A stretch of 64,000 nt of DNA. It comes from Methanofollis formosanus. Its GTDB lineage: Archaea; Halobacteriota; Methanomicrobia; Methanomicrobiales; Methanofollaceae. The DNA lies in the NCBI RefSeq assembly GCF_019633745.1, contig NZ_CP037968.1:2424789-2488788 (forward strand). Reading direction: 5' to 3'. Shown here piece by piece: positions 35,669 through 52,061 of this stretch (position 1 is the stretch's first letter; the number at the start of each line of letters is the position of its first letter). The notes below the pieces were generated by a model. The model was not told where the DNA came from and did no database searches. It worked only from the letters and a program-made list of their open reading frames with translations. The position numbers and the translations under genes are program-made.

Positions 35669-38600
35669 TCAGCCCGCAGCAAGATCCACATGGCACTCCC
35701 TCATCTCATACGGCACCACCACCACATCCTCAAGCGTCTTTGAACCTTCCTTCCCCACGACCTTCACATCATAGGATCCGATGCCGAGGTAATGGAAGGT
35801 GTGAGGCGTTTTTTCTCCGGTGTCCTTGCCGTAGAGATAGATCTTCGCACCCTCGGGGGTGCTCCCCACCGTAAGCGACCCGTACGCATAGGGTCCCAGG
35901 TCCAGACCGACCTCCGCGTCCTGCTCCTTATGGCGATTGTCGGTCAGCAGGACCACCTCCCCCTCAGGAATATATCCCGGCTTTGAGAGCGAGACCAGGT
36001 GCCTGCCCTCCGAGATGTTCTCGACGAGATATGGCGTCGCATATCCGGTAGAGAGGCCGTCGATGAATATCAAAGCCCCTGAAGGCACTGAAGTGACGAG
36101 GAGTCCGCAGGGTGCGGTGAGCGAAGACCCGATGACCACCGTCTCGTTCGATTGAACGGTATTCAGGATCTTCTGCGAGAAGAAACTGCCATTGTCATGG
36201 ACCGTGACATACGCATCGATCCCAACGACATCGACGTTCTTTGGAAGCTTGTACCCCAGATACCTGCCGTTGACCGAGAAGGGAGAGCCCGAATATCCCT
36301 CTGACTCAATCGAGAGCGACCGCTCAAGCCCTTTCGAGCCACTGCTGAATTTCACTAGCGACACTGAGTTCTTCACGATCCATACTCGTTCTTTCTCATT
36401 CGCGAACTCGACATTTTTCATCTTCACCTTGATCGTATGCAGTCCTTCTTTCAGCCCGTAGACGAGTGCGGGTGTCTTTTTGTTGCTCTTCCTGCCGTCC
36501 ACATAGATCTCTGCCCCCTCAGGGAAGGACTCGACATACACCCCGCCATGCCGGTTCTCCTCCCACCCGCGCAGCGGCCCGGTGGCGACCATCTGCTCCT
36601 TCAACTCTGAAGAACCCGATTCAAATTGTAGATGGATCTCGTCGTCGCGCTCAAGATAGACCGTTTCCTCCACCGGTTCGAACCTGTCCATGCTCATCCT
36701 GATGGTGTGGGTCCCCCCGGATAACGACTCAAGGGTGGCGGGCGTCGTCCTGCCGGTGTACTCTCCGTCGAGATCGATGAGGGCCCCAGGCGGAGTGGAG
36801 AGGATGGAGAGGGCAAACTGCATCGTCGCGACATCAACCTGAGTGGGTGCCGGGGTGACCGCCGGCGTTTCAACAGGAGCCGTTGGCGCGATCATCTGCC
36901 CGGATAAATTGCCGGCCATCATCGCGGGGTCAGGTGAGGGGACGGACGCCTCTCCTGAGATATCGATCCCGAATATCCCGAAGAATGCGGTCACAAAGCC
37001 ACCGATCAGGTCGAAGAGCGGTTGAAAGATCCCATGATCGCAATCTTCACCCCTTTCCATGAGCGCATATATCCCTCCCTGCCTGATCCTGGCGGAGAGG
37101 CTGCCATCTGTAACATCCGCCTCCACCGGTTGCCATTGGTCCAGAGAATCGTCGTATCTGACAAGACGGACCCCTGAAAGCCCGAGCCGGTCGGTATGGA
37201 TGACCAGCAGGAGAGGAATATCGGCCACCATATCATCATCACCGATTGCGTACGCCCGCAGGGCGTCGCCGGGTCTGAGCACCTCCAGTCTCAGCGCTGA
37301 GAGAGGTTTCCCGGCACCGTCGGTGATCACCGTCCCTTCGGAGATGAAGAGTTCGACCGCCCCCTCGTCGAAGGTGAGGTGCGTGGCCTCAAGCCTCTCA
37401 TTCGATTCGTTCAGCGTGAACCGCTCGCTGCTTCCGGTCGACGTCATCCCCTGAGTGCCGGAAAGATTCGCGGCGGACGTGACATTCACCGGCGCCCCGG
37501 CCGGCGGGGTTCCATGCCTGACAACAAGGATAATCCCCCGGTTCTCCATGTAGTCACCTTTCATTGAGGTGATATAACTCTGGATTCCGGCCTCGTTCTC
37601 CGACGGCATCAGATAGGGCCTGACATCTATCCCGGCCACACTGATCGCAGACGATCCTCCGGTGAGGAGATTGAACCACTCACCTTCATTGAAGGTGATC
37701 CGATGCTCGTCATCGTCCTCCCCCGACCCGGCCGTGGTCACCAGGATAAGCCGCGCTTCCTTCGTATTCGCAAGGTTGATCTCGCCGTCGAAGAGTGCCG
37801 TCGTGATGCAGTCGTCGCTCGTGGTGCCAAAGTCGGGGTTGGCATAGAGGGTGTCGGAGCCCTCTGCGATCCAGTAGGTGATCTCTGGTGCTGCCGGGTC
37901 TTCGACCATGACCAGCACACCCGGGCCATAGGTCGCGAAGACATCGTCTTTTCGCCCATCGTTGGTTACCGTCACCATATGGTCGCCGGCCGCGCCGCCC
38001 TTGATCCCGGAGATGTTATAGGCATGGGTCTCGAGGAGATAGTTGTAGATGCCTTCGTTTTTCCGGTCACGGTAGACCTTATCGGCCTTGATCTCGACAC
38101 CGTCGACCTTCAGCGTGATCCTGCTGTTGGTCCCCTCTTTGCGCTTCTCGTCGTGTCCCCAGGTGGTGTAGATGTAGAGTCTTGCATACCTGACCGTACC
38201 GTTCTCAGGTGCCGGGATCGTGATCGCAAACTCCCGGCTCTCCCCGGCATGGATCAGTCCGGTATAGTCGCTGAACTCATGATACGTGAGGTTGCCGTGG
38301 AGTGTGCCGGTGGTGAAGAGATCCAGTCTCTTGCCGGTGTATCCGAACTCTGGATCGATCTCTCCATCCGAACCGCCAGAGTCGCCTCCGGAAGACCCGA
38401 ATGTCAGGTCCACTCCGACGATCTCGTCCTCCTGTACCACCACCATCTGGTATGCGGGTTCATATCCCTCCTTCCTCACTTCAACGGTATATTTGCCGAT
38501 AATGAGGCCGTCGATAGTTGCCGGGGTCTGGAGAGATGTGTTTGTCATTTCCTGGTAGTCGCCCCCTTCGAGGTATATCCAGGCTCCTGACGGTTCGCTC

Positions 38601-39808
38601 GTCACCTCGATGCTCCCGGTGCGCGCTTCGAGATCGAAGTGGACGGTGGTGTTCTCCCCCTTCCTCACCTCGATCCACTGATCCTCGGAGGCGTGGTACC
38701 GCTCGTCCAGTTCGACCCGCACTGCGTGTTCGCCGGCCTCGACTCCGCTGATGGTCGTGTTGGTGACCCACTGGGTCTCTTCGTCGTCAAGGTAGACCAC
38801 CGCACCGGCCGGAGATGAGGTCACTTCGAGGTTCCCGACCTCTTTGCCCGGGTAGCGGACCGAGAGAACAGCGAGCGGGATCTTGAAATACGCCCCAAGA
38901 TAGCCCCCGCCGCTCCCGCTGACACTGAGGTCCCTGGTGTAGGTGAAAAGACTGTCAGACCAGGGGAGGACCAGGTCGGTGACATCTTCGGTATGGTAGC
39001 CGGAGTACGCCCCCTGCGGCTCCGGGGCCTCGATGGATTCTGAGTTGAACGTGAATTCCCCTACTTTGCTTGCCATATGGACAAGCGAGAGTTCGGCGAC
39101 GTACTCACGCTCGTCATCTTCAGGGAGATCGCCGGTGGCAAAGGTCGTCTCTCCTTCATAGGTCTCGCCCAGATAATCCTCGACATAATACGAGTGGACG
39201 TCATGTCCCTGGTTCACCCAGTAATACACCTCGTCGCTGTCGCCGTCGTCATAGGCGACGACCAGGGTGACGATCTTGATCCTCCCGTCAAAGGTGCCTG
39301 TATATCCCTCAGGTTGATCGACCTTGACTTTGGCGACGACCTCCCTCTTTTTGATCGCGTCGGTGACGTCATACCACATCAGGTAGTCGCTCGTCACCCG
39401 GTTGCAGTGTTCGTTCACCCAGACCGGTCCGGAACCGCCGTCGATCGGGAATGAGTACGGCACCCGCAGTTCCTCCACCTCCAGGGTCTGTGTCCCGGAT
39501 CCGCCGTCGAATTTTACCGTTGCACGATGTTCGTAGTTGTTCTGCATATGGGCGCAGTAGACGGACACATAGAGGCGTGCCCATTTGATCTCCGTGTATT
39601 CAGGCAGGGTATACTTCTTTGAGACGTCACGGTCCATTCCTGTGCCGACAAAGGAGTTTACGTAGACCCCGCCTGAGACGACGCCTTCGTCGACGGTCGT
39701 GAGAGGGATGCCTCCCACATACTGGTCGGCAGCGACGCAGGCCGGGAGGGTGAGAAGGAGAACGGTGAGAAACACTGCCGCCCGTGCAGATCTGCTCTCC
39801 GTCGCCAC
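35669..39808 (-). CDS. Giant secreted DUF3344/PEGA surface protein
   Basis: This 1379-residue extracytoplasmic protein has a signal peptide (about residues 8-27). The modules in order are DUF3344 (about 28-320, with VWVNEHCNRVTSDYLMWYDV and YYWVNQGHDVHSYY), two PEGA repeats (about 325-395 and 398-470; NLEVTSSPAGAVVYLDDEET), a second DUF3344 (about 490-780; ITYWIAEGSDTLYANPDFGT), a beta-rich segment (about 790-945), a short hydrophobic stretch (IFQPLFDLIGGFVTAFFGIF), then about four more PEGA-like repeats to the end (for example SILSTPPGALIDLDGEYTGR). No C-terminal anchor or sorting motif is seen. PEGA and DUF3344 occur in archaeal cell-surface proteins; the binding partner is unknown. The permease gene ends 3 bp upstream. 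Confidence 0.88.
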   Translation of the reverse strand: MATESRSARAAVFLTVLLLTLPACVAADQYVGGIPLTTVDEGVVSGGVYVNSFVGTGMDRDVSKKYTLPEYTEIKWARLYVSVYCAHMQNNYEHRATVKFDGGSGTQTLEVEELRVPYSFPIDGGSGPVWVNEHCNRVTSDYLMWYDVTDAIKKREVVAKVKVDQPEGYTGTFDGRIKIVTLVVAYDDGDSDEVYYWVNQGHDVHSYYVEDYLGETYEGETTFATGDLPEDDEREYVAELSLVHMASKVGEFTFNSESIEAPEPQGAYSGYHTEDVTDLVLPWSDSLFTYTRDLSVSGSGGGYLGAYFKIPLAVLSVRYPGKEVGNLEVTSSPAGAVVYLDDEETQWVTNTTISGVEAGEHAVRVELDERYHASEDQWIEVRKGENTTVHFDLEARTGSIEVTSEPSGAWIYLEGGDYQEMTNTSLQTPATIDGLIIGKYTVEVRKEGYEPAYQMVVVQEDEIVGVDLTFGSSGGDSGGSDGEIDPEFGYTGKRLDLFTTGTLHGNLTYHEFSDYTGLIHAGESREFAITIPAPENGTVRYARLYIYTTWGHDEKRKEGTNSRITLKVDGVEIKADKVYRDRKNEGIYNYLLETHAYNISGIKGGAAGDHMVTVTNDGRKDDVFATYGPGVLVMVEDPAAPEITYWIAEGSDTLYANPDFGTTSDDCITTALFDGEINLANTKEARLILVTTAGSGEDDDEHRITFNEGEWFNLLTGGSSAISVAGIDVRPYLMPSENEAGIQSYITSMKGDYMENRGIILVVRHGTPPAGAPVNVTSAANLSGTQGMTSTGSSERFTLNESNERLEATHLTFDEGAVELFISEGTVITDGAGKPLSALRLEVLRPGDALRAYAIGDDDMVADIPLLLVIHTDRLGLSGVRLVRYDDSLDQWQPVEADVTDGSLSARIRQGGIYALMERGEDCDHGIFQPLFDLIGGFVTAFFGIFGIDISGEASVPSPDPAMMAGNLSGQMIAPTAPVETPAVTPAPTQVDVATMQFALSILSTPPGALIDLDGEYTGRTTPATLESLSGGTHTIRMSMDRFEPVEETVYLERDDEIHLQFESGSSELKEQMVATGPLRGWEENRHGGVYVESFPEGAEIYVDGRKSNKKTPALVYGLKEGLHTIKVKMKNVEFANEKERVWIVKNSVSLVKFSSGSKGLERSLSIESEGYSGSPFSVNGRYLGYKLPKNVDVVGIDAYVTVHDNGSFFSQKILNTVQSNETVVIGSSLTAPCGLLVTSVPSGALIFIDGLSTGYATPYLVENISEGRHLVSLSKPGYIPEGEVVLLTDNRHKEQDAEVGLDLGPYAYGSLTVGSTPEGAKIYLYGKDTGEKTPHTFHYLGIGSYDVKVVGKEGSKTLEDVVVVPYEMRECHVDLAAG

Positions 39809-39811
39809 CCT

Positions 39812-41035
39812 TCACACCCCCGTCCTGATCGCTGTCACCGGATTGAGGCGTGCCGCTTTCAATGCCGGATAAAATCCTGATATCTGGGAGAGCACCACCG
39901 CAATGACGATCCCGAGCAACAGGAGGCCGGGCGTGATCAGGGTGATATCCGCGTCTGCAAAGGTGGCGAAGGTGTCGCCTAGTTGAGCGATGATAAAGGG
40001 TTTTCCGAAGATGTTGATGACGCCGGCGAAGGCGATCCCGAGGAGATCGCCGATCACTCCGCCGATCAGCCCGATATACAGGCACTCGAAGAGGATGAGC
40101 TGGAGAACGTTGCCGGGAGATGCGCCGATAGCCATGGTGATCCCGATCTCTCTTGTCCGCTCGAAGATCGAGGTGATCATCGTGTTCATGATCATCAGGG
40201 CGCCCACGATGAGTGACACCCCGGCAAAGAACGCGAGGAGCAGGACGACCACATCCATCAGACGGTTCACTGACTCGATCTGCTCGAAGGCCCCTGTGGC
40301 AGTGAGACCCAGGGCCTTGACGCCGTCCACCACACCGAAGACCTCTTCGGGATGGTCGACCCTGATGAGGACGCCGTCCAAAGACGCCTCGCCGCCGCGC
40401 AGATCCTGTGCGACCCCACGGTCGATCAGCATCATCTGATCAAATTGGTCGTCCCGTTCCTGCAGCACGCCGACCAGCGTGAAGTCCACCTGCACGTCCA
40501 CCGGCATCCCGTCCTCGTCGTACTGCCTGATCAGGATCGGGATCGTGTCACCGAGGCGGATCCCTTCATAGCGCTGGAGCGTCTCAGCGAGGTCGTGGCC
40601 GAGGACCGCCTGCCTGGAACCCGGATCGATCGGATCTCCCTTGAAGTATCGGGGTTTGATCACCTCCCCGATCTCTGTCGGGTCGATGCCTATCACACCC
40701 AGGTAGGTCTGTCGTTTTGTTGCGTAGGCTTCTCTGACAACCGCCGATGAAGCCTTGATATGGGGTATTGCCGCGATCTCGTCGATCTTTGCGGGGGTGA
40801 TCAGGTGGAGCGTGCCGCCGCGGATATCCGCGGTCGCCTCGATGAGGGTCAGATCTGACTGCTCCTTGATCGCTTCCACCGCCTGATATCTGATCCCTTC
40901 CCCCAGCGAGATGGTCCCGACCACCGCCGCCACGCCGATGGCGATGCCGAGGGCGGTGAGCAGGACGCGCATCCGTTTCCGTGCGACCTGCCTGGCCGCG
41001 ATCTTCAGAGACTCAAAGACTCGTGCGATCTCCAT
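39812..41035 (-). CDS. MacB/FtsX-type ABC transporter permease
   Basis: About 407 residues with the MacB layout. One N-terminal helix (about residues 20-42, RMRVLLTALGIAIGVAAVVG) is followed by a large extracytoplasmic MacB_PCD domain (about 45-255). Three C-terminal helices belong to the FtsX domain (VVLLLAFFAGVSLIVGALMI; LFECLYIGLIGGVIGDLLGI; LITPGLLLLGIVIAVVLSQI). ERTREIGITMAIGAS is the diagnostic cytoplasmic loop. The start at 41035 lies one base after the ATPase stop. MacB-type pumps power envelope processes from the cytoplasm rather than moving substrates through a pore; the client here is plausibly one of the surface proteins. Confidence 0.93.
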   Translation of the reverse strand: MEIARVFESLKIAARQVARKRMRVLLTALGIAIGVAAVVGTISLGEGIRYQAVEAIKEQSDLTLIEATADIRGGTLHLITPAKIDEIAAIPHIKASSAVVREAYATKRQTYLGVIGIDPTEIGEVIKPRYFKGDPIDPGSRQAVLGHDLAETLQRYEGIRLGDTIPILIRQYDEDGMPVDVQVDFTLVGVLQERDDQFDQMMLIDRGVAQDLRGGEASLDGVLIRVDHPEEVFGVVDGVKALGLTATGAFEQIESVNRLMDVVVLLLAFFAGVSLIVGALMIMNTMITSIFERTREIGITMAIGASPGNVLQLILFECLYIGLIGGVIGDLLGIAFAGVINIFGKPFIIAQLGDTFATFADADITLITPGLLLLGIVIAVVLSQISGFYPALKAARLNPVTAIRTGV

Positions 41036-41036
41036 C

Positions 41037-41699
41037 TCACACCACCTTCCCGTCGAGGAGTTCGATGGAACGGTCGGCACGCTTCCCGAGTTCCCGTTCA
41101 TGGGTCACGATCAGAAACGTCGTCTCCCGCTCCTGGTTCACCTCGCGCATCAACTCAAAGATCCCGTCACTTGTCTTTGAGTCCAGGTTCCCGGTCGGTT
41201 CGTCGGCAAGCACGATCGACGGGTTCCCGACAAGGGAGCGGGCGATCGCCACCCGTTGCTGTTCGCCGCCGCTCATCTCGCGGGGATAGTGATCGGCTCT
41301 CTCTGCGAGCCCCACCATCTCGAGAAGGGCCAGCGCTCGCTCTTCTCTCACCGCCCTCCTGGCATAGTTGAAGAGGAGGGGATATTCCACATTCTCCCTG
41401 GCCGTCAGCGTCGGGATGAGATTGAAGTTCTGGAAGACAAAACCGAGCGCCTCTCTTCTGAGGGTGATGAGCGCCTGCCTATCTTCGAAGTCGACTCTCG
41501 TTCCGTTGATATATACGTCTCCTCCGGTCGGCCGGTCGAGTCCGCCGAGGATATTGAGGAGCGTGCTCTTCCCGCTCCCGCTCCGCCCGAGAAGGGTGAC
41601 GAACTCTCCTCTCTCAAGGGCGAGGTTTACGTTCCTGAGTGCAGTCACCTGCTCGGTGTACGCCTTGCTCAGGTCTCGTGTCTGCATGATGACGTCCAT
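41037..41699 (-). CDS. MacB/LolD-type ABC transporter ATPase
   Basis: The 220-residue ATPase has Walker A LLGRSGSGKSTLLNILGG, Q-loop FVFQNFNLIPTL, signature MSGGEQQRVAIARSL, Walker B IVLADEPTGNLD and switch His in IVTHERELG. The DEPTGNLDSKT block is typical of the MacB/LolD group. The start at 41699 has GAGGTG just upstream; 41687 is a possible second ATG. It lies between the short DUF3344-like gene and the permease, all on the same strand. Confidence 0.95.
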   Translation of the reverse strand: MDVIMQTRDLSKAYTEQVTALRNVNLALERGEFVTLLGRSGSGKSTLLNILGGLDRPTGGDVYINGTRVDFEDRQALITLRREALGFVFQNFNLIPTLTARENVEYPLLFNYARRAVREERALALLEMVGLAERADHYPREMSGGEQQRVAIARSLVGNPSIVLADEPTGNLDSKTSDGIFELMREVNQERETTFLIVTHERELGKRADRSIELLDGKVV

Positions 41700-41703
41700 T
41701 TTT

Positions 41704-42678
41704 TCACCTCTTTTCAGCCCACAACACGGCATTGGTAAGGACAAGATAGTCTTTTTCGTCCCTGACAGCCGCAAAATTGTTCTCAGACCGGAGATAGGGC
41801 AGCACATCCCGGCGGTCGATCCCGACCTGCCTCGTCTCGTCGGAGTCGAAGATGTTCACCCACTCCCGGCCATTTGATCCCGGGAACAGAGCCGAGAGAA
41901 TCGATTCAAAGAACGAGGGCATGCTGGTCTCTCCCTCGCGGTTCAGAAAGAGCCGGTTGATCTCGGGGATGTTCTCCCTCGTATAGCCACCAGAGGGAGC
42001 GATGAGGAGGAGTTCGGCAGATGAGAGATCTGACTTCTCGACTTTTCCTTCGAACTTGATCCTGCTCGTCGCCATGGGAGGAGTGATCCCGTAACTGTTG
42101 TACAGGAGATCGGCCCCTTCTTTGATCCAGCAGACGACTTCAGGCGACTCCGGGCACTCGTAAATGACGAGCAGACCGATCCCCTGGACCACGAAGGTGC
42201 GGTTGTCGTCTGCGGTATTCTCAAGGACGGCGGTGAAAGCGTTCTTCCCTGGAGAGAGGTCGGCCGTCTCGAAGATGTCCATCCCTGAGAAAAAATCGTT
42301 CTTGCTCACGAACCCCTTGGAGTCGACAGACCGTCCCGTGCTGTTGAGGAGTGCGCCCGTGTCGGTGCGGGTGACTGATACCGAGGGATAGATCGCCTTC
42401 TGGTCGAGTTTGCTCCAGGCCCAGTAGACATAGAGGCGCTGGTATCGTATTGTTGCATCTTCAGGGAGTTCGACCTCGAAGTCGACGGCGTACCGGTCCC
42501 CTGGGTTCAGTGCTCCGCTGTAGGTGCTGTTGCCGAGGGTGAAGAGGTGGGCGCCGTTGAATTCGTCATGATATGCCGTCTCAAGTGGTTTATCGCCGGC
42601 ATAGGTGGCAGAGACCGCAGGGAGGAAGAGGAGCACGCCGAGGAGAGCGACGCTGATGGCCAGCCTATGGGAAGACAT
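41704..42678 (-). CDS. Secreted DUF3344-type surface protein (single module)
   Basis: The 324-residue protein has a signal peptide (SSHRLAISVALLGVLLFLPA, cleavage near VSATYA). One DUF3344-like module spans nearly the whole length (RYQRLYVYWAWSKLDQ; VVCWIKEGADLLYNSYGITP; AELLLIAPSGGYTRENIPEI). It is shorter than its neighbours and lacks PEGA repeats or an anchor, so it may be released or may be a partner subunit of the ABC system directly downstream (4 bp). The start at 42678 overlaps the preceding gene by 14 bp. Confidence 0.82.
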   Translation of the reverse strand: MSSHRLAISVALLGVLLFLPAVSATYAGDKPLETAYHDEFNGAHLFTLGNSTYSGALNPGDRYAVDFEVELPEDATIRYQRLYVYWAWSKLDQKAIYPSVSVTRTDTGALLNSTGRSVDSKGFVSKNDFFSGMDIFETADLSPGKNAFTAVLENTADDNRTFVVQGIGLLVIYECPESPEVVCWIKEGADLLYNSYGITPPMATSRIKFEGKVEKSDLSSAELLLIAPSGGYTRENIPEINRLFLNREGETSMPSFFESILSALFPGSNGREWVNIFDSDETRQVGIDRRDVLPYLRSENNFAAVRDEKDYLVLTNAVLWAEKR

Positions 42679-44467
42679 AGTCGCCCTCCGCCGCGTTGTT
42701 CCCCCGGTCGGCATCTCTGATCGTACCGGCCTCGTCGGCGACCACCCGCAAACGATGTTTTCCCGGTGTCGTGAAATGAGAAAGAGCGATATCGACTGTT
42801 GCCCCGGCCTCCAGTCCTCCATCCACAGGTTTCACCGCCGCCTTCTCCCCGTCCAGATAGACGGTGAGGTCAAAGGGCGGTGTGTCGCTCCCGCCGAGGT
42901 TTGTGATCGTGACCGGGACGGTGTAGTCTTCGTACCCGGCGGCGGCGGCCGGTGATATGGCCAGTGGGCACGATGCCGCAATGACCGCTCCTGCGATCAG
43001 CATGGCGGCAAGTTTCCCGCCTGGCGGGCGCCTGGCGAGGAGAACCGCGATACAGAGCCCTGCAACCAGAGCACAGAAAGGAGAGGGGGAGTGTTGCGTG
43101 TCCGGCTCTCCGGCACCGGTACGGGTCGGGGTGCCGATCTTCACCGCAAGATCAGGGATCGTCCCGACCCTGACGGTGTCCGAAGCCTCGTTGTCTGCAG
43201 GGTCGAGGTCGTTCCCGGCGTCGACCCGTACCGAGAGTGTGTGCCGGCCTTCGTCCAGCGTGACATTTGCCGCAACCTCCTGAACTCCCGAGACGTCCGG
43301 TTCGACGGTTATTGTTTCTACGGGCTCTCCGTCGACCGAGAAGACGGCCGTGATCATCCCTTCCGGCCGCGCTCCGTGGTTTCTCACCGTTGCCTGCACC
43401 GTCGCCTCTTCACCGGCGTAGGCCCCTCTCACCTCCGGGATATCCACGGAAAGGTCGGGGGCCGGGTCGGCACCCGGTCTCTTCACGGTAAGAATGGCAC
43501 AGCAGGGATGGATGTAGTCTTCACCCTCAGGTTTGTCTCCGGTGGTGGTGATCGTACCGTCGTCGTCGAGGTCCCTCCCGCGTTCGAAGAGGACGTGGTT
43601 CGTCTCCTTGAGGAGAGCGCCGACATCGAAGGTCTCGACATCGACATATCTTGCCTCGGTCCCGAGGCCGCCCGTGGCGTCGAAACATCGTTCGTTGCCG
43701 ATGTCCCGCGCGCCTGCCGGGTAAAGGGAGGGATCGTCAGGGGCGACACCGAGGTCTTCGCCATTGAACCTGACATAATCAGGCTGTCCCTTCGTCGAGG
43801 CCAGCAGCAGTATGGTGAGGTCTGCGGTGGCACCTTCCAGCAGGCCTGCCTTCTCAAACGAAATCTCGCTCTTGTCATGTCGCGTGGGGTTTGTCCCGGC
43901 CCACCCCTCTCCATGGAGGTTCTCGTTTCCTTCGGCGATCCAGTATCTGGTGGTCGGTCCGTCTTTATCCTCGACGACGGCGACGACGAAGATACCATAG
44001 GCCCTTCCATCGATCCTGCTCTCAGGCAGGCCCCTGCTGGTCGTCAGGGAGACGGTGTTCTTGCCGCCATGGAGTTGATCGGTACAGTCGTGCGCGATCC
44101 AGTAGACGCCATAGCCCGAGACATAGGTCTCTTCATTCTGATCATCTTTCCCGAAGAGTGAGCGTCTGACCGGGACACCGTTGTTGACGGTGAGTTCTTC
44201 CCATCCGGTGTAGCGTTCGGTTCCGCCCCAGACACCTGTATAGACTCTTGCCCAGATTGGCTTGTCCGGGAGAGAGAAGGTGCACTCAATAGGCGGGGCC
44301 TCAAGCCCATAGGTGCCGAAGGTGAGCACATCCCCCCTGACTTCCCCCTGGGCCGTCATATGGAGGGGGATGCCTTCAAAATCGTACACTGCCGATACCG
44401 GGGCGGCAAGGAGGAGTATTGCCGCGCAGAAAAGACATCTTATCAAGGGAGAGGGGGAAAATTTCAT
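42665..44467 (-). CDS. DUF3344/CARDB surface protein with internal anchor and second signal-like segment
   Basis: The 600-residue protein has a signal peptide (about residues 8-27). A DUF3344 module (about 28-325; YWIAHDCTDQLHGGKNTVSL, RYWIAEGNENLHGEGW) is followed by a CARDB domain (about 335-430; PDLSVDIPEVRGAYAGEEAT). A hydrophobic stretch comes next (PSPFCALVAGLCIAVLLARR), immediately followed by another (LAAMLIAGAVIAASCPLAIS, then PAAAAG), and last a CARDB-like domain (about 515-600). The middle looks like the C-terminal anchor of one protein joined to the signal peptide of another. It is the first gene of the leftward block; the probable TATA lies about 30 bp before the ATG. Confidence 0.85.
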   Translation of the reverse strand: MKFSPSPLIRCLFCAAILLLAAPVSAVYDFEGIPLHMTAQGEVRGDVLTFGTYGLEAPPIECTFSLPDKPIWARVYTGVWGGTERYTGWEELTVNNGVPVRRSLFGKDDQNEETYVSGYGVYWIAHDCTDQLHGGKNTVSLTTSRGLPESRIDGRAYGIFVVAVVEDKDGPTTRYWIAEGNENLHGEGWAGTNPTRHDKSEISFEKAGLLEGATADLTILLLASTKGQPDYVRFNGEDLGVAPDDPSLYPAGARDIGNERCFDATGGLGTEARYVDVETFDVGALLKETNHVLFERGRDLDDDGTITTTGDKPEGEDYIHPCCAILTVKRPGADPAPDLSVDIPEVRGAYAGEEATVQATVRNHGARPEGMITAVFSVDGEPVETITVEPDVSGVQEVAANVTLDEGRHTLSVRVDAGNDLDPADNEASDTVRVGTIPDLAVKIGTPTRTGAGEPDTQHSPSPFCALVAGLCIAVLLARRPPGGKLAAMLIAGAVIAASCPLAISPAAAAGYEDYTVPVTITNLGGSDTPPFDLTVYLDGEKAAVKPVDGGLEAGATVDIALSHFTTPGKHRLRVVADEAGTIRDADRGNNAAEGDYVFP

Positions 44468-45049
44468 ACGAAAGGAGGTACGGTCACACTAGATATTAAT
44501 ATTGTTCTATTTGTTATGAATTATTGTATTTGATCCGAAGAAATTAGAGACTCAACGCGTGCCTGCTTATCACTTAGATGTCTGGTACTTTTTTTGATTT
44601 GTTGACTCACGCGTGAGTCGAGAGTACACCCCGCAGATCGGATGGGGGTGCATGGATTCATGTTCTCCCCCCGGAAGTCAGCCGCTGTCCTATGCTATCT
44701 CCTTTGTGAGGATCCGGAGGGCACAGCCACAAGGCAGGAGATATGTATTCAGAATACCTGGAATGAAGAGATTTGATCGGGGCAATGATCCATATCCAGG
44801 ATAATTTTGGAGTATGCTCTTTATCAGCGATTTTATAGGGTCGTCTTATTCAGAGAATTCTATCCTCTCTAGTTCCTCGGCAGGAGGAATATTACAAATT
44901 TTTATTTTTTGATTCATTAATAATATCAATTATTTTAATTTTATGATCATTTATGAGATATAAAAATATATATCACACTTGGGCCATCCATGCCTGTAGG
45001 GGAGGTTCAATCCCCCCACCTAGAACAAGACCAGTATCGGAGGAAATAC
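44468..45049. promoter_or_regulatory. AT-rich divergent control region of the surface-protein cluster
   Basis: No gene is seen in this 580-bp gap. At the left, the minus strand has AATATTAATATC (44491-44505) as probable TATA of the leftward operon. From 44880 to 44980 the sequence is very AT-rich, with TATAAAAATATATA at 44960-44973 as the TATA box of the rightward gene. This would start transcription near 44995 and leave a leader of about 55 bases. In that leader lies a GC-rich hairpin (44999-45017) that resembles a tRNA T-arm (GGTTCAATCC in the loop). CGGAGGAAATAC precedes the ATG at 45050. Confidence 0.55.
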
Positions 45050-46009
45050 ATGAAAAAAAGCAACAAATGTATGTTTTCAGGCATGCTTGTGCTGCTGGCG
45101 GTGCTCGCGATGGCGGCGCCGGCGGCAGCCGACCCGTGGATTGGAGGAGACAAACTGGTCAACGCGAACGGAACCTCAGGGAACGTGTCCGGTGGTCTCT
45201 GGTTCGACGCGTATCCCGGCTTTGACTATGCGTATTCTACGCCGGTGACGAAAAATTTCTCGCTTCCGTGCACTGCAGGTAATGTCGAATGGGCGCGTCT
45301 CTATGTCACGACCTACATCGGGAGCATGACCAAAAACTACCCCCTGAACACGACGGTGGAGTTCGACGGCGGATCGGGCTATGGGACCCTGGGTTCGGAG
45401 ATCATGAACACCACCTACACCTATCCGGAGAACAGCAGTGCTGATGGAACGGTCTGGATCAACAACCACTGCAACCGGGTGACGAGCGACTGCCTGATGT
45501 GGTACGACGTGACCAACGATATCACCTCATCGAGCGTCGCGGCGCGCGTGCACACGGCCTGCCCTAACGGCACGCAGCCGTATGACGGCCGGGTGAAGAT
45601 GATCACGCTTGTGGTCGCATATAACGATCCCTCGAGTGGGAAAGAGATCTCTTACTGGGTGAACCAGGGTCACGACACCGATTCCAAAAAAGCTGACCAG
45701 AATGGCTGCTCTTACATCGGGAACACCACATTCAGCACAGTAACATCCTCGGTTATCGATGCAGACCTGACGGCCATCTACTTGGCGAGTTACAACGGTA
45801 ATTACACCTTCAACGGCAACACACTCACCTGGAGCAACCCGTGCCAGGGATCGTACTTCGGCTATCAGAGTTGGAATGTCACCAACTACATTACCAGCGG
45901 AGATAATTTCATGACATTCGACCGGAACACCACCGATCCATCACTGTACGGCGGGTACTTCAAGATCCCGCTTGCGCTCCTGACTGTGGAGGAGGAGCAG
46001 GAAGTGTAA
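45050..46009 (+). CDS. Secreted DUF3344 surface protein (single module)
   Basis: The 319-residue protein has a signal peptide (MFSGMLVLLAVLAMAAPAAA). One complete DUF3344 module is close in sequence to the first module of the giant leftward protein: compare VWINNHCNRVTSDCLMWYDV and SYWVNQGHDTDSKK here with its counterparts. It is rich in Asn-x-Ser/Thr sites, consistent with N-glycosylation. No anchor or PEGA repeat follows; the protein ends in EEEQEV after the module. GGAGG sits eight bases before the ATG. A hairpin terminator follows the gene, so it appears monocistronic. Confidence 0.88.
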   Translation: MKKSNKCMFSGMLVLLAVLAMAAPAAADPWIGGDKLVNANGTSGNVSGGLWFDAYPGFDYAYSTPVTKNFSLPCTAGNVEWARLYVTTYIGSMTKNYPLNTTVEFDGGSGYGTLGSEIMNTTYTYPENSSADGTVWINNHCNRVTSDCLMWYDVTNDITSSSVAARVHTACPNGTQPYDGRVKMITLVVAYNDPSSGKEISYWVNQGHDTDSKKADQNGCSYIGNTTFSTVTSSVIDADLTAIYLASYNGNYTFNGNTLTWSNPCQGSYFGYQSWNVTNYITSGDNFMTFDRNTTDPSLYGGYFKIPLALLTVEEEQEV

Positions 46010-46353: not shown

Positions 46354-49300
46354 ATGATGAACGGAGCTGATAGGAAGATGCGAAAAACATTTCTGCTTCT
46401 CTGTATCGTTGCACTACTGTGCATGGTTGCTCTCGTTGCGCCGGTGATGGCCGCCAACGAAACATTCCCGGCAGACGCCGACTCATATGTTCGGTTTGGC
46501 ACATCGTTTGAGAATAGAAATTATGGTACTGCTACATCTCTTAGTACTCTGCAAACTTCGCTGGGAGTACATCTGAGAAGTCTTATCCACTTCGATCTTT
46601 CGTCGATCCCCAAAGGGGCGGAGATCGAGTCGGCAACACTCTATGCGTATATGTCCGCCAGAGCAGGCGACAGGGAGGTTGGTGCTTACCGCGTGACCGA
46701 TACGTGGAACGAGTCCGGCGTCACCTGGAAAACGCAACCTTCTGTGGATACACAACCGACCAGTTCGATCGATCCTGGTTCGGCAGTGAATACCTGGATC
46801 TGCTGGAACGTCACGCAGGACGTACAGGCATACGCGGACGGTACTGCAAATTATGGGTGGATGATTAAAAATACAGACGAATCGACGCCATCTATGGATC
46901 AGAAAGTCACGCTGAGGAGCCGCAACTATGCCGACGCCACACAACACCCCTACCTGAACGTAACCTACACAATCCCCCCGCTTGTTCTGACCACGATCGA
47001 GGTTTCTCCCGCGACGGCGAGCGTGGCGGTGAACGCCACGCAGCAGTTCAACGCCACCGCAAAGGACCAGAACGGAGATGAGATGACGAATGTCTGCTTC
47101 ACCTGGAGGAGCAGCAACGAGACCGTCGGCACGGTGAACACTAGTGGGTACTTCACTGCCCTCGCCGCTGGCACGACCACGATCACCGCGTCAGCGGAGA
47201 ATGTGAGTGGGGCGGCGACGGTGACGGCAAGCGTTCCCACCTGTGACCTTACCTTTGCGGGCGGCGGAGCATATCCTATTACAAATGCTGTATTCACCCG
47301 CATGCAAAACACCATCCGGGTCGGCAGGATTACCAATCTCGGTTCAAATATGTCTCCTGAAACGGAGGTCGAGGTCCGTTCGAGCGACGGTTTCGTCGGC
47401 AGGGCTACACTCCCTCCGGTCCAACCTGGAGAAAAAGCACCGTATGTCTTTCTCATCGACACGACCATCAGGGAGTCTGAAGGCGGGAAGGTGACCTACA
47501 CCACTATCATCGACCCCGACAACACTGTCGTGGAGATCTCTGAGACCAACAATGCCAAAACAACTCCGCCCCAACAGGTCGGATATAACGGCTACCTGGG
47601 TAAGCGGTACATGGATAGCGGCAATGACCTCACCACGGTGCGGACCTACGACCTCCGCGGCGACATCATCAATTCATTCGGTGACAGCCATTATATCTCC
47701 GGCAAAGGCAAATGGACGAACTACACCGTGAACTGGACCGGCGACGACCTGCTGCTCCCGGAAGGTGCGACCGTCCGCGACGCCTGGCTCTATGTGCCGT
47801 ACTGCTGGGACAGCACAAACGTAGCACCGAACAACCTCTCAATCACTTTCAACGGCGATCCGGTGCCCTATGTGAACTGGTACCATGACAAGGCGAACTT
47901 CGGCACTTATGGGGGTATGGTCTACGGCCTGATGACCTATAATGTGACCACTTCCTATAAGGTGGGCGTCAACAACACGGCACTCTTCGAGCGGGAGAAG
48001 GCAGGCACCACCATCTGCCCGGCCGGGTTCACCCTTGCGGTGGTCTACGAAGACCCGTCAGTCACCAGAAAGCAGATCTTCGTCAACGAAGAGTTTGACG
48101 CCCTTGGTGCCGACTCCGTAAATTATGGCACGAACGAGAGTCGGGCAACGGCATATGCGCCGTTCAGCGGCATGACCCTCGACACAGCGAACGTCAGCCG
48201 CGCAAACCTCACGACGTTCGTCCCTTGGGGCAACAGTGGGGAGGGCAACCTGTACTTCAACGGCAACCGGATCGGGAGCGGTGTATGGAACTACGGTCCC
48301 CTTACTGTGGGTGGCTCAGACTCCCCACAGGTGGCTGTGGACGACCGCGAGGTGACGGCGTACCTCAACGCGACCGGGAACGAAGCGACGATCCAGAGTT
48401 CCGAATCCAGCCAACCACTGATGGTGGCAGCACAGACCTTCCTCGTCATTGAGTATGCCGATCCCGCCGCCCCGGACCTCACGGTCAGCACCCTCATGCC
48501 AAACAAGAACGAGATCTTCTCCGCGACTGGAAATACCTACACCGCGAAGATCACGAACATCGGGACGGCCGATGCGGGTGCGTTTTCGGTCGAATTCAAG
48601 GTGAGCGGCGTCACCGGTGCGGTTGCCGTGCCCGACGGCCTCGCCGCGGGTGCGAACACCACCCTCACCTGGACCGACTCGACGGTGCATGCCGCGGGCG
48701 AGCCGGCGACCTTCACCGTCACCGCCGACCCGGGGTGCATGATCGACGAATCGAACGAGGAGAACAATGTCAGATCTTTTGAGAAGACCGTCGTGGACAA
48801 CGGTTACCGCGGCAAGCGGTGGACCGGCGGTGAGGACCTCACCACTGCCGTGACCTATGACGTCCGCGGCGACCTGGCGTACTCTTCTGGCGACAGTCTC
48901 TATCTCGGTGCCGCGGACAACCCGCACTGGACGGCGTACACCGCGAACTGGACCGTCAACGACCTTGACATCCCGGCCGACGCCACCGTCACCGCCGCAC
49001 GGCTCTACGTCCCTTACACCTGGGACAAAGGTCCGGTCTTCCCTGGCAATGTCACCCTCACCTTCAACGACATCCCGGTCGAGAGAGCCGCCTTCTATAG
49101 CGACGAAAAGATGTGGGGGAGTTCATATCCGTACGGCATGACCGTCTACGACGTCACCGAACCGTTCAGCACCGACGGCAACGCCGCCGTCCTGACAAAC
49201 ATCTACCCCGGAGGCGGGAACGTCTCGGTACGCGGAATGGTGCTTGCGGCGGTCTACGACGACGGCGTCACCGCCCCGCACACCATTGTCATCAACGAGG

Positions 49301-50988
49301 GCTTCGACCTCCTGTACGGCGGCAGCGGCCAGGCGACCACCCCTGAACAGGCGACCGCCTACGCACCCTTCACTCTCGACACCACCAACGCCGTCAACGC
49401 TACCCTCGTCGCCCTCGCACCCGGCGCAGGGCCGAACGAAGGCGAACTGATCTTCAACGACAACGTGTGGACCGACGCCTGGAACTTCACCGGGCAGAGC
49501 CAGATCGGTGCGGCCGAACGCGACGTGACCTCGCTCCTCGCAGGCGAAGGCAACGTTGCAGCGTTCCAGAGCAGTGGGGACTGGATGGAAGCGGCCGCCG
49601 CCTTCCTGGTGGTGACCAATCCGGTCCCGAACGGCTGCATCGAAGTCACCTCGACGCCGGAAGGAGCGGCGATCTTCCTTGATGGCGAGGATACCAGCAA
49701 GGCGACAAACACTGTCCTTGAAGACATCCCCGCCGGGGAGCATGTGGTCACGCTGAAACTCGAAAACTACGCCGACGCCTCAACGCCGGTCACCGTCGTC
49801 GAAGGGGAGACCGCAACCGTCGACCTCTCGCTGACCACCCTCACCGGCAGCCTCGCCGTCACCTCTACCCCTGACGGCGCTTCGATCTTTATCGACGGTG
49901 CCGACACCGGCGAGACGACCGACACCACCCTCACCGGCATCGCCGTCGGCGACCACACCCTCGCCCTGAAGAAGGAAGGGTACCGCGAGGCGTTCGCTGA
50001 GGTGACGATCCGGCACGACGAGACCACCGACCTCCACCTCGACCTCGAGAAGGCGGTCGGGTGCATCGCCGTCACCTCGACGCCCGAAGGTGCAGCGATC
50101 TTCTTGGACGGGGAGGAGACCGGCGAGACGACGAACGCGATCCTTGAAGGAATCGCGGTCGGCGAGCACACCATCACCCTGAAGAAATCCGGATACATGG
50201 AGGCCTCGGCGACGGTGACCGTTATCGACACCGAGACAGCATCAGTAGAATTCACCCTCGCCGAACCCGCAGGAAACATCGTGGTCACCTCCTCCCCGGA
50301 CGGTGCCAGAGTCTTCCTGGACGGAAAAGATACCGGCGAGCAGACGAACACCACGCTCACGCGGGTCTCGCCCGGCGAACATCAGGTCGCGGTGAGCCTT
50401 GAGGGGTATCTTGAGGCGGAGAAGGCGGTGACGGTCGTCGAAGGCGAGAGCGTCGCCGTCCATTTCGACCTCTCGCAGGCCTCGATCACCCTCCTCCCCG
50501 GCTGGAACTTTGTCTCGACCCCGAAGACCCTCGCACCCGGCCACGACACCATCGCCATCTTCGACGAGGTGGACACCGCCGACCACTCGGTATTGTTGTA
50601 CAACGGGACGAAACAGTGGGAGGCGATGAGTTCCGAAGAAGCGTTCAGGCCGCTCGACGGGATCTGGATCTATGCCAACGGCACCTACGAGATCCCGCTT
50701 GCCTTCGACACCGGCGGGGCCTCCGCCCCGCCGGAGAAGGCCCTCGACGAGGGCTGGAACGCCATCGGGTTCACCGACACTGTTCCCGAACCCGCGGCAA
50801 ACACTCTCAGGTCGGTCGAGAAATGCTGGGCAACCCTCATCGGGTTCGACGCCGGCGCACAGGAGTACAAGACCTCGATCATCCGCGGCGCCGATGGACG
50901 GCACGGTGAGATGCGTGCGATGGAACCGATGGACGGCTACTGGCTGTACATGAGCGATGCGGACCTGCTCTGCGCCATCGGAGCGTGA
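46354..50988 (+). CDS. Giant modular surface protein: DNRLRE, Ig-like, CARDB, DUF3344 x2, PEGA x4
   Basis: This 1544-residue protein has a signal peptide (about residues 10-34). The modules in order are DNRLRE (about 35-205; ETFPADADSYVRFGTSFENR), bacterial Ig-like group 2 (about 211-285), CARDB (about 296-390), DUF3344 (about 411-705), a second CARDB (about 707-805), a second DUF3344 (about 815-1085), four PEGA repeats starting near 1092, 1164, 1235 and 1306, and a closing domain from about 1377 (LLPGWNFVSTPKTLAPG ... MDGYWLYMSDADL). There is no C-terminal anchor. A second ATG eight codons in is possible. The next gene, a membrane-anchored surface protein, overlaps or abuts it, so the two may work together. 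Confidence 0.88.
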   Translation: MMNGADRKMRKTFLLLCIVALLCMVALVAPVMAANETFPADADSYVRFGTSFENRNYGTATSLSTLQTSLGVHLRSLIHFDLSSIPKGAEIESATLYAYMSARAGDREVGAYRVTDTWNESGVTWKTQPSVDTQPTSSIDPGSAVNTWICWNVTQDVQAYADGTANYGWMIKNTDESTPSMDQKVTLRSRNYADATQHPYLNVTYTIPPLVLTTIEVSPATASVAVNATQQFNATAKDQNGDEMTNVCFTWRSSNETVGTVNTSGYFTALAAGTTTITASAENVSGAATVTASVPTCDLTFAGGGAYPITNAVFTRMQNTIRVGRITNLGSNMSPETEVEVRSSDGFVGRATLPPVQPGEKAPYVFLIDTTIRESEGGKVTYTTIIDPDNTVVEISETNNAKTTPPQQVGYNGYLGKRYMDSGNDLTTVRTYDLRGDIINSFGDSHYISGKGKWTNYTVNWTGDDLLLPEGATVRDAWLYVPYCWDSTNVAPNNLSITFNGDPVPYVNWYHDKANFGTYGGMVYGLMTYNVTTSYKVGVNNTALFEREKAGTTICPAGFTLAVVYEDPSVTRKQIFVNEEFDALGADSVNYGTNESRATAYAPFSGMTLDTANVSRANLTTFVPWGNSGEGNLYFNGNRIGSGVWNYGPLTVGGSDSPQVAVDDREVTAYLNATGNEATIQSSESSQPLMVAAQTFLVIEYADPAAPDLTVSTLMPNKNEIFSATGNTYTAKITNIGTADAGAFSVEFKVSGVTGAVAVPDGLAAGANTTLTWTDSTVHAAGEPATFTVTADPGCMIDESNEENNVRSFEKTVVDNGYRGKRWTGGEDLTTAVTYDVRGDLAYSSGDSLYLGAADNPHWTAYTANWTVNDLDIPADATVTAARLYVPYTWDKGPVFPGNVTLTFNDIPVERAAFYSDEKMWGSSYPYGMTVYDVTEPFSTDGNAAVLTNIYPGGGNVSVRGMVLAAVYDDGVTAPHTIVINEGFDLLYGGSGQATTPEQATAYAPFTLDTTNAVNATLVALAPGAGPNEGELIFNDNVWTDAWNFTGQSQIGAAERDVTSLLAGEGNVAAFQSSGDWMEAAAAFLVVTNPVPNGCIEVTSTPEGAAIFLDGEDTSKATNTVLEDIPAGEHVVTLKLENYADASTPVTVVEGETATVDLSLTTLTGSLAVTSTPDGASIFIDGADTGETTDTTLTGIAVGDHTLALKKEGYREAFAEVTIRHDETTDLHLDLEKAVGCIAVTSTPEGAAIFLDGEETGETTNAILEGIAVGEHTITLKKSGYMEASATVTVIDTETASVEFTLAEPAGNIVVTSSPDGARVFLDGKDTGEQTNTTLTRVSPGEHQVAVSLEGYLEAEKAVTVVEGESVAVHFDLSQASITLLPGWNFVSTPKTLAPGHDTIAIFDEVDTADHSVLLYNGTKQWEAMSSEEAFRPLDGIWIYANGTYEIPLAFDTGGASAPPEKALDEGWNAIGFTDTVPEPAANTLRSVEKCWATLIGFDAGAQEYKTSIIRGADGRHGEMRAMEPMDGYWLYMSDADLLCAIGA

Positions 50989-50990
50989 AG

Positions 50991-52061
50991 ATGAAGGTAT
51001 GGCAGGGCATCGCGGTGCTCCTCCTCCTCGGCCTCGTCGCCGGTGCGGCGGCCGATGAGGGCGTCCCCGTTTTCCCCCACGAGTTCAAGGGGAGCGTGAC
51101 GATCGACGGCAAACCCGCGCCCGCGGGGACCGAAGTCACTGCGGTGCTGGGTGGCGAGACGTACGGGCCTGTGACGACCGCGGCTGACGGGACGTACGGC
51201 GGCTCCAGCCGGCATGCGGGTGAGAGGCTGCTGGTCCTCGGTACCGACGACCTCGCCGGGGAGACAATCACCTTCCTGGTCGGTGGAAAAGCAGCAAAAG
51301 AGACGGCGACCTTCAGCCCGAAGGGCACGAGCCGCGTTGACCTCAGTGTCGGGAGCGGTACGACGCCAAAGCCTCCGTCGAACAGCGGCGGCGGTGGCGG
51401 AGGGACGACGTCCCCGGTCTCCGGACCGACCACGACTCAGACGACGTCGGTGGAGCGGGTGACTCTCCCGATATCGAAGAGCGGCGAATTGACCGGGACC
51501 GTGACGGTGCGGACCAGTGACGGCGTGGGGGCGGTGACTCTCAGGGAAGGCACGGTCGCCCGCGACCGCGACGGCGAACCGCTCAGGGAAGTGACGATCA
51601 AAAGGGCCGACATGAGTGGAACCCCCCCGATCCCGCCGGGAACAACGATCGGTTTCGCTCTCAGGTGCGGTCCGGCCGGCGCCACCTTCGACCCCCCCAT
51701 CACCCTCACCTACACCCTCTCCGTGGAAGAGTGGGAGAGGATCGGCGACCCTGCCACCCTGACGGTGATGTGGTACAACCCCGAGAGCGGGGCCTGGCGG
51801 GAAGTCCCCGCCACCGTCGACGCGGCCACCCGGACGGTGACCGCCCGCGTCTCGCATTTCAGCCTCTTCGCCCTCTCGTGGGCTGCCCCGAAACCAGTGA
51901 CAGCATCGGCGGACCGCCCCGTCGCGGCCGCCACCACGATCGGGCTGGAAGGTCAGCGGTCGGCCGCCGGCGAGACTCCATGGACGCTGGTAGCGGCCGG
52001 GGGCCTGCTGATCGTCGGCGCACTGGCGGTAGGAGGATATGTCGTGAGGAAAAAGAGGTAA
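50991..52061 (+). CDS. C-terminally anchored surface protein
   Basis: About 356 residues with a signal peptide (VWQGIAVLLLLGLVAGAAA). A beta-sandwich domain (about 23-115; FKGSVTIDGKPAPAGTEVTA) is followed by a Gly/Ser/Thr linker (NSGGGGGGTTSPVSGPTTTQ). A second beta-rich domain (about 145-300) includes YTLSVEEWERIGDPATLTVM and VSHFSLFALSW, a ZU5-like or death-fold-linked pattern common in archaeal surface proteins. A transmembrane helix (TLVAAGGLLIVGALAVGGYV) and VRKKR end it. It begins at the ATG at 50991 or a GTG at 50985 that overlaps the upstream stop. It may anchor the unanchored 1544-residue neighbour; this is inference from position. Confidence 0.82.
   Translation: MKVWQGIAVLLLLGLVAGAAADEGVPVFPHEFKGSVTIDGKPAPAGTEVTAVLGGETYGPVTTAADGTYGGSSRHAGERLLVLGTDDLAGETITFLVGGKAAKETATFSPKGTSRVDLSVGSGTTPKPPSNSGGGGGGTTSPVSGPTTTQTTSVERVTLPISKSGELTGTVTVRTSDGVGAVTLREGTVARDRDGEPLREVTIKRADMSGTPPIPPGTTIGFALRCGPAGATFDPPITLTYTLSVEEWERIGDPATLTVMWYNPESGAWREVPATVDAATRTVTARVSHFSLFALSWAAPKPVTASADRPVAAATTIGLEGQRSAAGETPWTLVAAGGLLIVGALAVGGYVVRKKR

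Follow-up and report, generated by a model that had tools for sequence, protein, structure and literature searches.

Why should the genes of an ATP-binding cassette (ABC) transporter stand inside a run of genes for secreted surface proteins? The question is raised by a 64,000-nucleotide stretch of the 2.97 Mb genome of Methanofollis formosanus, hereafter the window (contig NZ_CP037968.1; G000:C1:2424789-2488788), in which a minus-strand run at positions 35669-44467 encodes, in order of transcription, two proteins with the domain DUF3344 (here D1 and D2), an ATPase, a permease and a giant protein (Table 1). The comparative data presented below identify D1, D2, the ATPase and the permease as an invariant machine, to which the PEGA-domain giant is an accessory.

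An initial annotation, made from the sequence alone, had described five packed same-strand genes in this order, separated by gaps of -14 to +4 bases and therefore probably produced together. This description is borne out, with gaps of -14 (D1/D2), +4 (D2/ATPase), +1 (ATPase/permease) and +3 (permease/giant) and with matching Pfam domains, and joint production is supported. In addition, a scan of the window operon for terminator-like sites on the coding strand found none breaking the five-gene run. The DUF3344 (PF11824) matches reach 125 to 403 bits, against a gathering score of 27.2. At the position of the 14-nucleotide overlap between D1 and D2, a usable ATG or TTG start of D2 (start codons were picked by eye) is present in 24 of 27 loci, and two further loci begin one codon earlier, which argues for coupled translation of the two proteins.

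The pairing of DUF3344 with MacB-type genes, which the annotation had expected in other Methanomicrobiales and whose absence from all DUF3344-bearing relatives it would have taken as a sign of accidental adjacency, was followed by a neighbourhood survey across 120 genomes of the order, 43 of which encode DUF3344. A profile of the operon permease picks out 28 genomes at 470-682 bits (681 bits for the window permease), the next best permease of the order scoring 150. This permease type occurs in 28 of the 43 genomes with DUF3344 and in none of the 77 without (Fisher p about 9e-17, uncorrected for kinship), and the order D1-D2-ATPase-permease is found in all 27 permease loci (26 genomes), mostly with overlaps of a few bases. 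Chance adjacency is rejected on the fixed order, the clean split of the profile scores and the confinement of the permease to DUF3344 genomes. Beyond the order, a D1 profile run on 393 genomes of the phylum found D1 in 44, including Methanosarcina and several lineages known from metagenome-assembled genomes, and a scan of 84,980 species returned 42 D1 loci, all from methanogens or ANME-2, the closest named relative (93% in D1) belonging to a metagenome-assembled Methanofollis. D1 is followed by the ATPase in 39 of these 42 named loci; of the other three, two run into a contig end and one has a truncated D1. The loci are distributed over Methanofollis, Methanoculleus, Methanoregula, Methanolinea, Methanocalculus, Methanogenium, Methanocella, Methanosarcina and ANME-2; in Methanosarcina, about 8 kb separate the ATPase from the permease, which is still part of the locus wherever the contig extends far enough. 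Additional DUF3344 giants are often found next to the operon. The PEGA giant follows the core in nearly all Methanomicrobiales and is absent behind it in Methanosarcina and ANME-2, so that the constant partners of the motor are D1 and D2.

The M. formosanus genome itself carries a second full operon (copy B, G000:C1:2497259-2505575), which starts 8.5 kb past the right end of the window, on the opposite strand and 28 kb from the window operon (copy A), with the same gene order and the same 14-nucleotide D1/D2 overlap. Gene by gene, the two operons share 51-61% identity, while copy A reaches 86-91% with its counterpart in another genome (G015). A recent duplication within the genome is therefore rejected; the two copy types are old and the genes of each travel together. 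In the copy B region (G000:C1:2497259-2508676; L011:3260-14677), the operon is followed by a 915-residue protein of two DUF3344 domains and CARDB, with a C-terminal transmembrane helix and KRR anchor. Elsewhere in the same genome (G000:C1:704000-722000, L012), distant DUF3344 proteins occur without an ABC pair, next to a 1799-residue molybdopterin oxidoreductase-domain protein, a second oxidoreductase and a calcineurin-like phosphoesterase. A truncated D1 of about 296 residues was also noted in Methanogenium sp. MK-MG (L131) and in G055:C78; in L131 it is followed by no D2 or ABC genes, but by a BtuD/FecCD/Peripla_BP_2 set, which looks like operon decay.

As to the motor, the Walker A (GRSGSGKST), signature (SGGEQQR) and Walker B (VLADEPTGNLD) motifs of the ATPase are all intact, and its closest structures are MJ0796 and LolD. 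The closest solved relative of the permease is YtrF (121 bits), followed by MacB and LolF/LolE (PDB). By sequence, the MacB_PCD outer domain followed by an FtsX domain, together with an ATPase of the MacB/LolD class, are the marks of a type VII transporter, and the permease is accordingly classed, on these sequence features, as a type VII ABC transmembrane subunit of an operon-specific clade. Transporters of this type perform work outside the membrane via dedicated partners (PMC5985334, PMC12646458). Given their fixed place in the operon and their constant presence, the natural candidates for such extracytoplasmic partners of the motor would be D1 and D2.

Comparison with known machines places this motor further. 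It shares with MacB the MacB_PCD plus FtsX permease and an ATPase of the same class; unlike in MacAB-TolC, the ATPase is a separate gene, there is no outer membrane, and the fixed partners are DUF3344 proteins. The HlyD-type adaptor family PF16576 (HlyD_D23), present in 9 of 14 control genomes, is absent from the window genome. Lacking both a fused ATPase and this adaptor, the operon motor is not a MacAB-TolC pump. LolCDE and LolF-LolD resemble it in their separate ATPase and roughly 405-residue permease, with full-length matches to the LolF, LolE and LolC chains, whereas the scores fall far under the NCBIfam cut-offs (242 bits against 307.75 for LolD; 81 against 362 for LolCE). YtrBCDEF, which provides the best-scoring solved permease, differs in gene make-up (YtrE being its ATPase), and DUF3344 partners are not described there. 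In YbbAP-TesA and FtsEX-EnvC, as may be the case here, a type VII motor works with a dedicated extracytoplasmic partner (PMC12646458). The partner is a hydrolase or an activator of murein hydrolases in those systems, and would be a set of beta-sandwich surface proteins in the operon.

D1 is predicted to consist of a signal peptide, a DUF3344 domain (residues about 30-330; 5.2e-36), a CARDB domain (5.6e-27), a two-helix transmembrane hairpin (about 460-504) and a second CARDB domain (AlphaFold2 model, pLDDT 82.8). Hydropathy indicates that the hairpin is kept in 26 of 27 orthologues, and in the predicted topology both the N- and the C-terminal end should be extracellular. D1 residues about 455-510 also resemble a C-terminal sorting signal (SPSPF, a hydrophobic stretch, ARR) with a signal-peptide-like helix directly after it, an arrangement that looks like a fusion of two exported proteins and is seen in 26 of 27 orthologues. 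D2 has a signal peptide and a single DUF3344 folded as two beta-sandwich lobes, with no C-terminal anchor (model pLDDT 85.2); the giant is likewise predicted to be secreted, with a signal peptide. Foldseek searches with the whole D1 and D2 models gave TM-scores of at most 0.28 to assorted beta-sandwich proteins, and no PDB relative of D2 better than an E of 0.1 was found by sequence. In VIA-align, each D2 lobe is moderately similar to carbohydrate-binding (CBM-like) or P-domain-like sandwiches, with Z values up to 10, against GH86 enzyme sandwich domains, which is little above background. With scores this low, no function is read from the DUF3344 fold.

The resemblance of both lobes to CBM-like sandwiches would nevertheless agree with a core that has no role in metal or tetrapyrrole uptake but serves the surface in some other way, for example in adhesion, in contact with the sheath or in the capture of carbohydrates, and that lies in a wide region of envelope and nutrient genes; DUF3344 is also listed among fibrillar-adhesin candidates of ambiguous function (PMC9210967). 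We consider this very unlikely, since the neighbours form two unrelated sets, FecCD/CobN and CbiQ/ECF, each of which is concerned with the uptake of chelates, cobalt or vitamins.

A different explanation takes the operon as a Lol-like or FtsEX-like machine for which D1, D2 and the DUF3344 giants of the envelope would be substrates to be extracted, set free or remodelled by the ABC pair. The tight coupling of the pair with DUF3344 genes, the extra giants beside the operon and the detectable scores against the LolD and LolCE models speak for it. Those scores are, however, well below threshold, the D1, D2 and giant proteins of both operon copies showed no canonical lipobox when examined as lipoprotein substrates, and the CobN, FecCD and CbiQ neighbours are left unexplained, so that we judge this machine unlikely. 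The initial annotation had similarly suggested that the transporter releases, assembles or retracts the giants. What is supported of that suggestion is the lasting pairing with DUF3344 proteins; service to the giants as such is not, given that in Methanosarcina and ANME-2 the core is found with no PEGA giant behind it.

The neighbouring genes suggest uptake of a chelate or tetrapyrrole, a function which the annotation had not considered. A CobN-type chelatase is encoded no more than 20 kb from the operon in 15 of 24 genomes, where 0.70 would be expected (P about 5e-18, uncorrected for kinship, which inflates the neighbourhood p-values), and a FecCD permease lies within the same distance in at least 19 of 29 genomes, against 2.96 expected. 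The usual set comprises p166, Peripla_BP_2, FecCD, a BtuD-like ATPase and CobN. In Methanocalculus, the genes Peripla_BP_2-FecCD-BtuD-CobN-D1-D2-ATPase-permease-giant follow each other on one strand, with CobN 273 bp from the operon, and in six Methanoregula-type loci (L051, L052, L089, L102, L110, L113) the Peripla_BP_2 gene lies between permease and giant. In Methanosarcina and ANME-2, the core adjoins CbiQ and a double ATPase of the energy-coupling factor (ECF) type instead. Uptake genes stand near the operon in at least eight genera, and the importers among them are of two unrelated types. For the window copy, CobN is 21 kb away with cobalamin genes nearby: CobS lies downstream of the operon, and the stretch that separates copies A and B holds genes for corrin methylases, CbiC, CbiD and CobN. 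A Methanoperedens plasmid carries DUF3344 genes beside NikR, CbiMNQO and ECF genes (PMC9674854).

Two families with no Pfam match were noted in these neighbourhoods. In many loci (L056, L057, L064, L068, L069 and others), the gene immediately before Peripla_BP_2 encodes a p166 protein (141-218 residues, signal peptide, C-terminal transmembrane anchor; Pfam-negative in the member scanned). Between the DUF3344 and ECF genes of Methanosarcina and ANME-2 lies a 359-363-residue protein (L073:3571-4662, L077:6156-7235) with a signal peptide, an outer domain and 5-6 transmembrane helices, possibly a substrate-specific ECF subunit.

From gene order, domains, co-conservation, neighbourhood and predicted topology, we infer, tentatively, that the operon is an energised surface device which captures a metal chelate or tetrapyrrole and hands it over to adjacent importers, a reading we hold to be plausible though short of probable. 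A type VII motor of the MacB/LolCDE/FtsEX class would form a physical complex with D1, anchored via its central transmembrane hairpin, and with secreted D2 as extracytoplasmic partners. ATP cycling would set the outer domain of the permease in motion, and D1 and D2 would pass this movement on to the DUF3344 surface proteins. Within the S-layer or outside it, these may bind a chelated metal or a tetrapyrrole (corrinoid, haem-like or siderophore-like). From there the cargo would go to the Peripla_BP_2 protein and be imported by the FecCD/BtuD transporter encoded nearby or, in Methanosarcina and ANME-2, by the CbiQ/ECF transporter, and a CobN-family chelatase would act on it inside the cell; in Methanomicrobiales, the PEGA giant may add reach or capacity. 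HmuS, a relative of CobN, removes iron from haem; what the CobN homologues of archaea do is described as unclear (PMC12583661).

The same neighbourhood would also fit a machine that takes a hydrophobic chelate, tetrapyrrole or metallophore out of the membrane or envelope, or exports it, comparable to HrtAB (haem) or PvdT (pyoverdine), with D1 and D2 as adaptors and with CobN and FecCD reflecting metal or tetrapyrrole balance and not uptake; relatives of MacB do transport haem, protoporphyrin and siderophores (PMC5985334). The presence of a substrate-binding protein gene within the operon and adjoining FecCD genes favours import, and with the HlyD-type adaptor missing as well, export appears quite unlikely.

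Several observations weigh against the capture-and-import reading. In 9 of the 24 genomes, CobN lies far from the operon or on a different contig, and no close FecCD gene stands beside the window genome's own copies, whose importer, if any, must therefore lie elsewhere in the genome. The cbi cluster is near the operon only in the genus of the window and in one other genome (CbiD, G195), for which reason cobalamin biosynthesis was dropped as a general partner and CobN, FecCD and ECF were preferred. No cobalamin riboswitch or other Rfam element was found in the window and four loci, and no palindromic operator shared upstream of D1 was detected, the window's palindrome GACTCACGCGTGAGTC not being seen upstream of other operon copies. 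The DUF3344 fold is nearer to carbohydrate-binding beta-sandwiches than to any known metal or corrin binder. Moreover, neighbourhood does not equal function, and we know of no case in which a type VII ABC transporter energises uptake.

A parallel in locus content is provided by the hmu/BtuS haem systems of Bacteroidota, which also include a FecCD-type importer. Those systems rely on TonB and an outer-membrane receptor, while here a MacB-type pair and DUF3344 proteins occur with no outer membrane. Surface proteins and a CobN-family chelatase share one locus there too (PMC12583661). By extension, methanogens and ANME could have reached a TonB-like solution without an outer membrane, in which a MacB-type motor and a DUF3344 array feed FecCD or ECF importers and the orphan archaeal CobN serves as dechelatase; this we regard as rather doubtful. 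The initial annotation knew of no described system of this composition, and none was found in the literature available to us, where a full-text search met DUF3344 in two papers only, as a list entry or passing mention, and the passages concerned describe no ABC partner of the MacB type. In conclusion, the motor is of a known class, while its pairing with DUF3344 proteins and chelate-uptake loci came up nowhere in that literature.

On the other side of the divergent intergenic region, the plus strand carries further DUF3344 genes (Table 1). The intergenic region contains a perfect 16-bp palindrome (GACTCACGCGTGAGTC, 44604-44619), which may be an operator. The gene for the 358-residue protein overlaps the preceding gene by 4 nucleotides.

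Table 1. Operon and divergent flank in the window (window positions; Pfam values are E-values)
Feature	Position	Strand	Basis or remark
D1, 600 residues, DUF3344-CARDB-transmembrane hairpin-CARDB	42665..44467	-	Likely true start; Pfam
D2, 324 residues, secreted DUF3344 protein	41704..42678	-	Likely start; Pfam 2.1e-63
MacB/LolD-type ABC ATPase, 220 residues	41037..41699	-	Pfam ABC_tran 4.1e-35
MacB_PCD + FtsX permease, 407 residues	39812..41035	-	MacB_PCD 3e-22, FtsX 1e-19
Giant, 1379 residues, 2 x DUF3344 + 6 x PEGA	35669..39808	-	Pfam 8.1e-121 and 3.4e-64
Divergent intergenic region before D1 and the plus-strand DUF3344 gene	44468..44989	.	
Secreted DUF3344 protein, 339 residues, divergent, likely associated	44990..46009	+	Pfam 8.3e-61
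Giant, 1544 residues, CBM96, Big_2, CARDB, 2 x DUF3344, PEGA, likely associated	46354..50988	+	Pfam
358-residue protein, signal peptide, C-terminal transmembrane helix + VRKKR anchor	50985..52061	+	No Pfam match

The operon ties DUF3344, a domain with no known function, and the archaeal CobN homologues to one conserved machine, and it provides a hypothesis testable in Methanosarcina acetivorans, for which genetics exist. If true, the TonB-like solution would be the first type VII ABC system to energise uptake. If the uptake reading is right, archaea would own an energised surface-capture step for the scarce metals or tetrapyrroles needed by methanogenesis.

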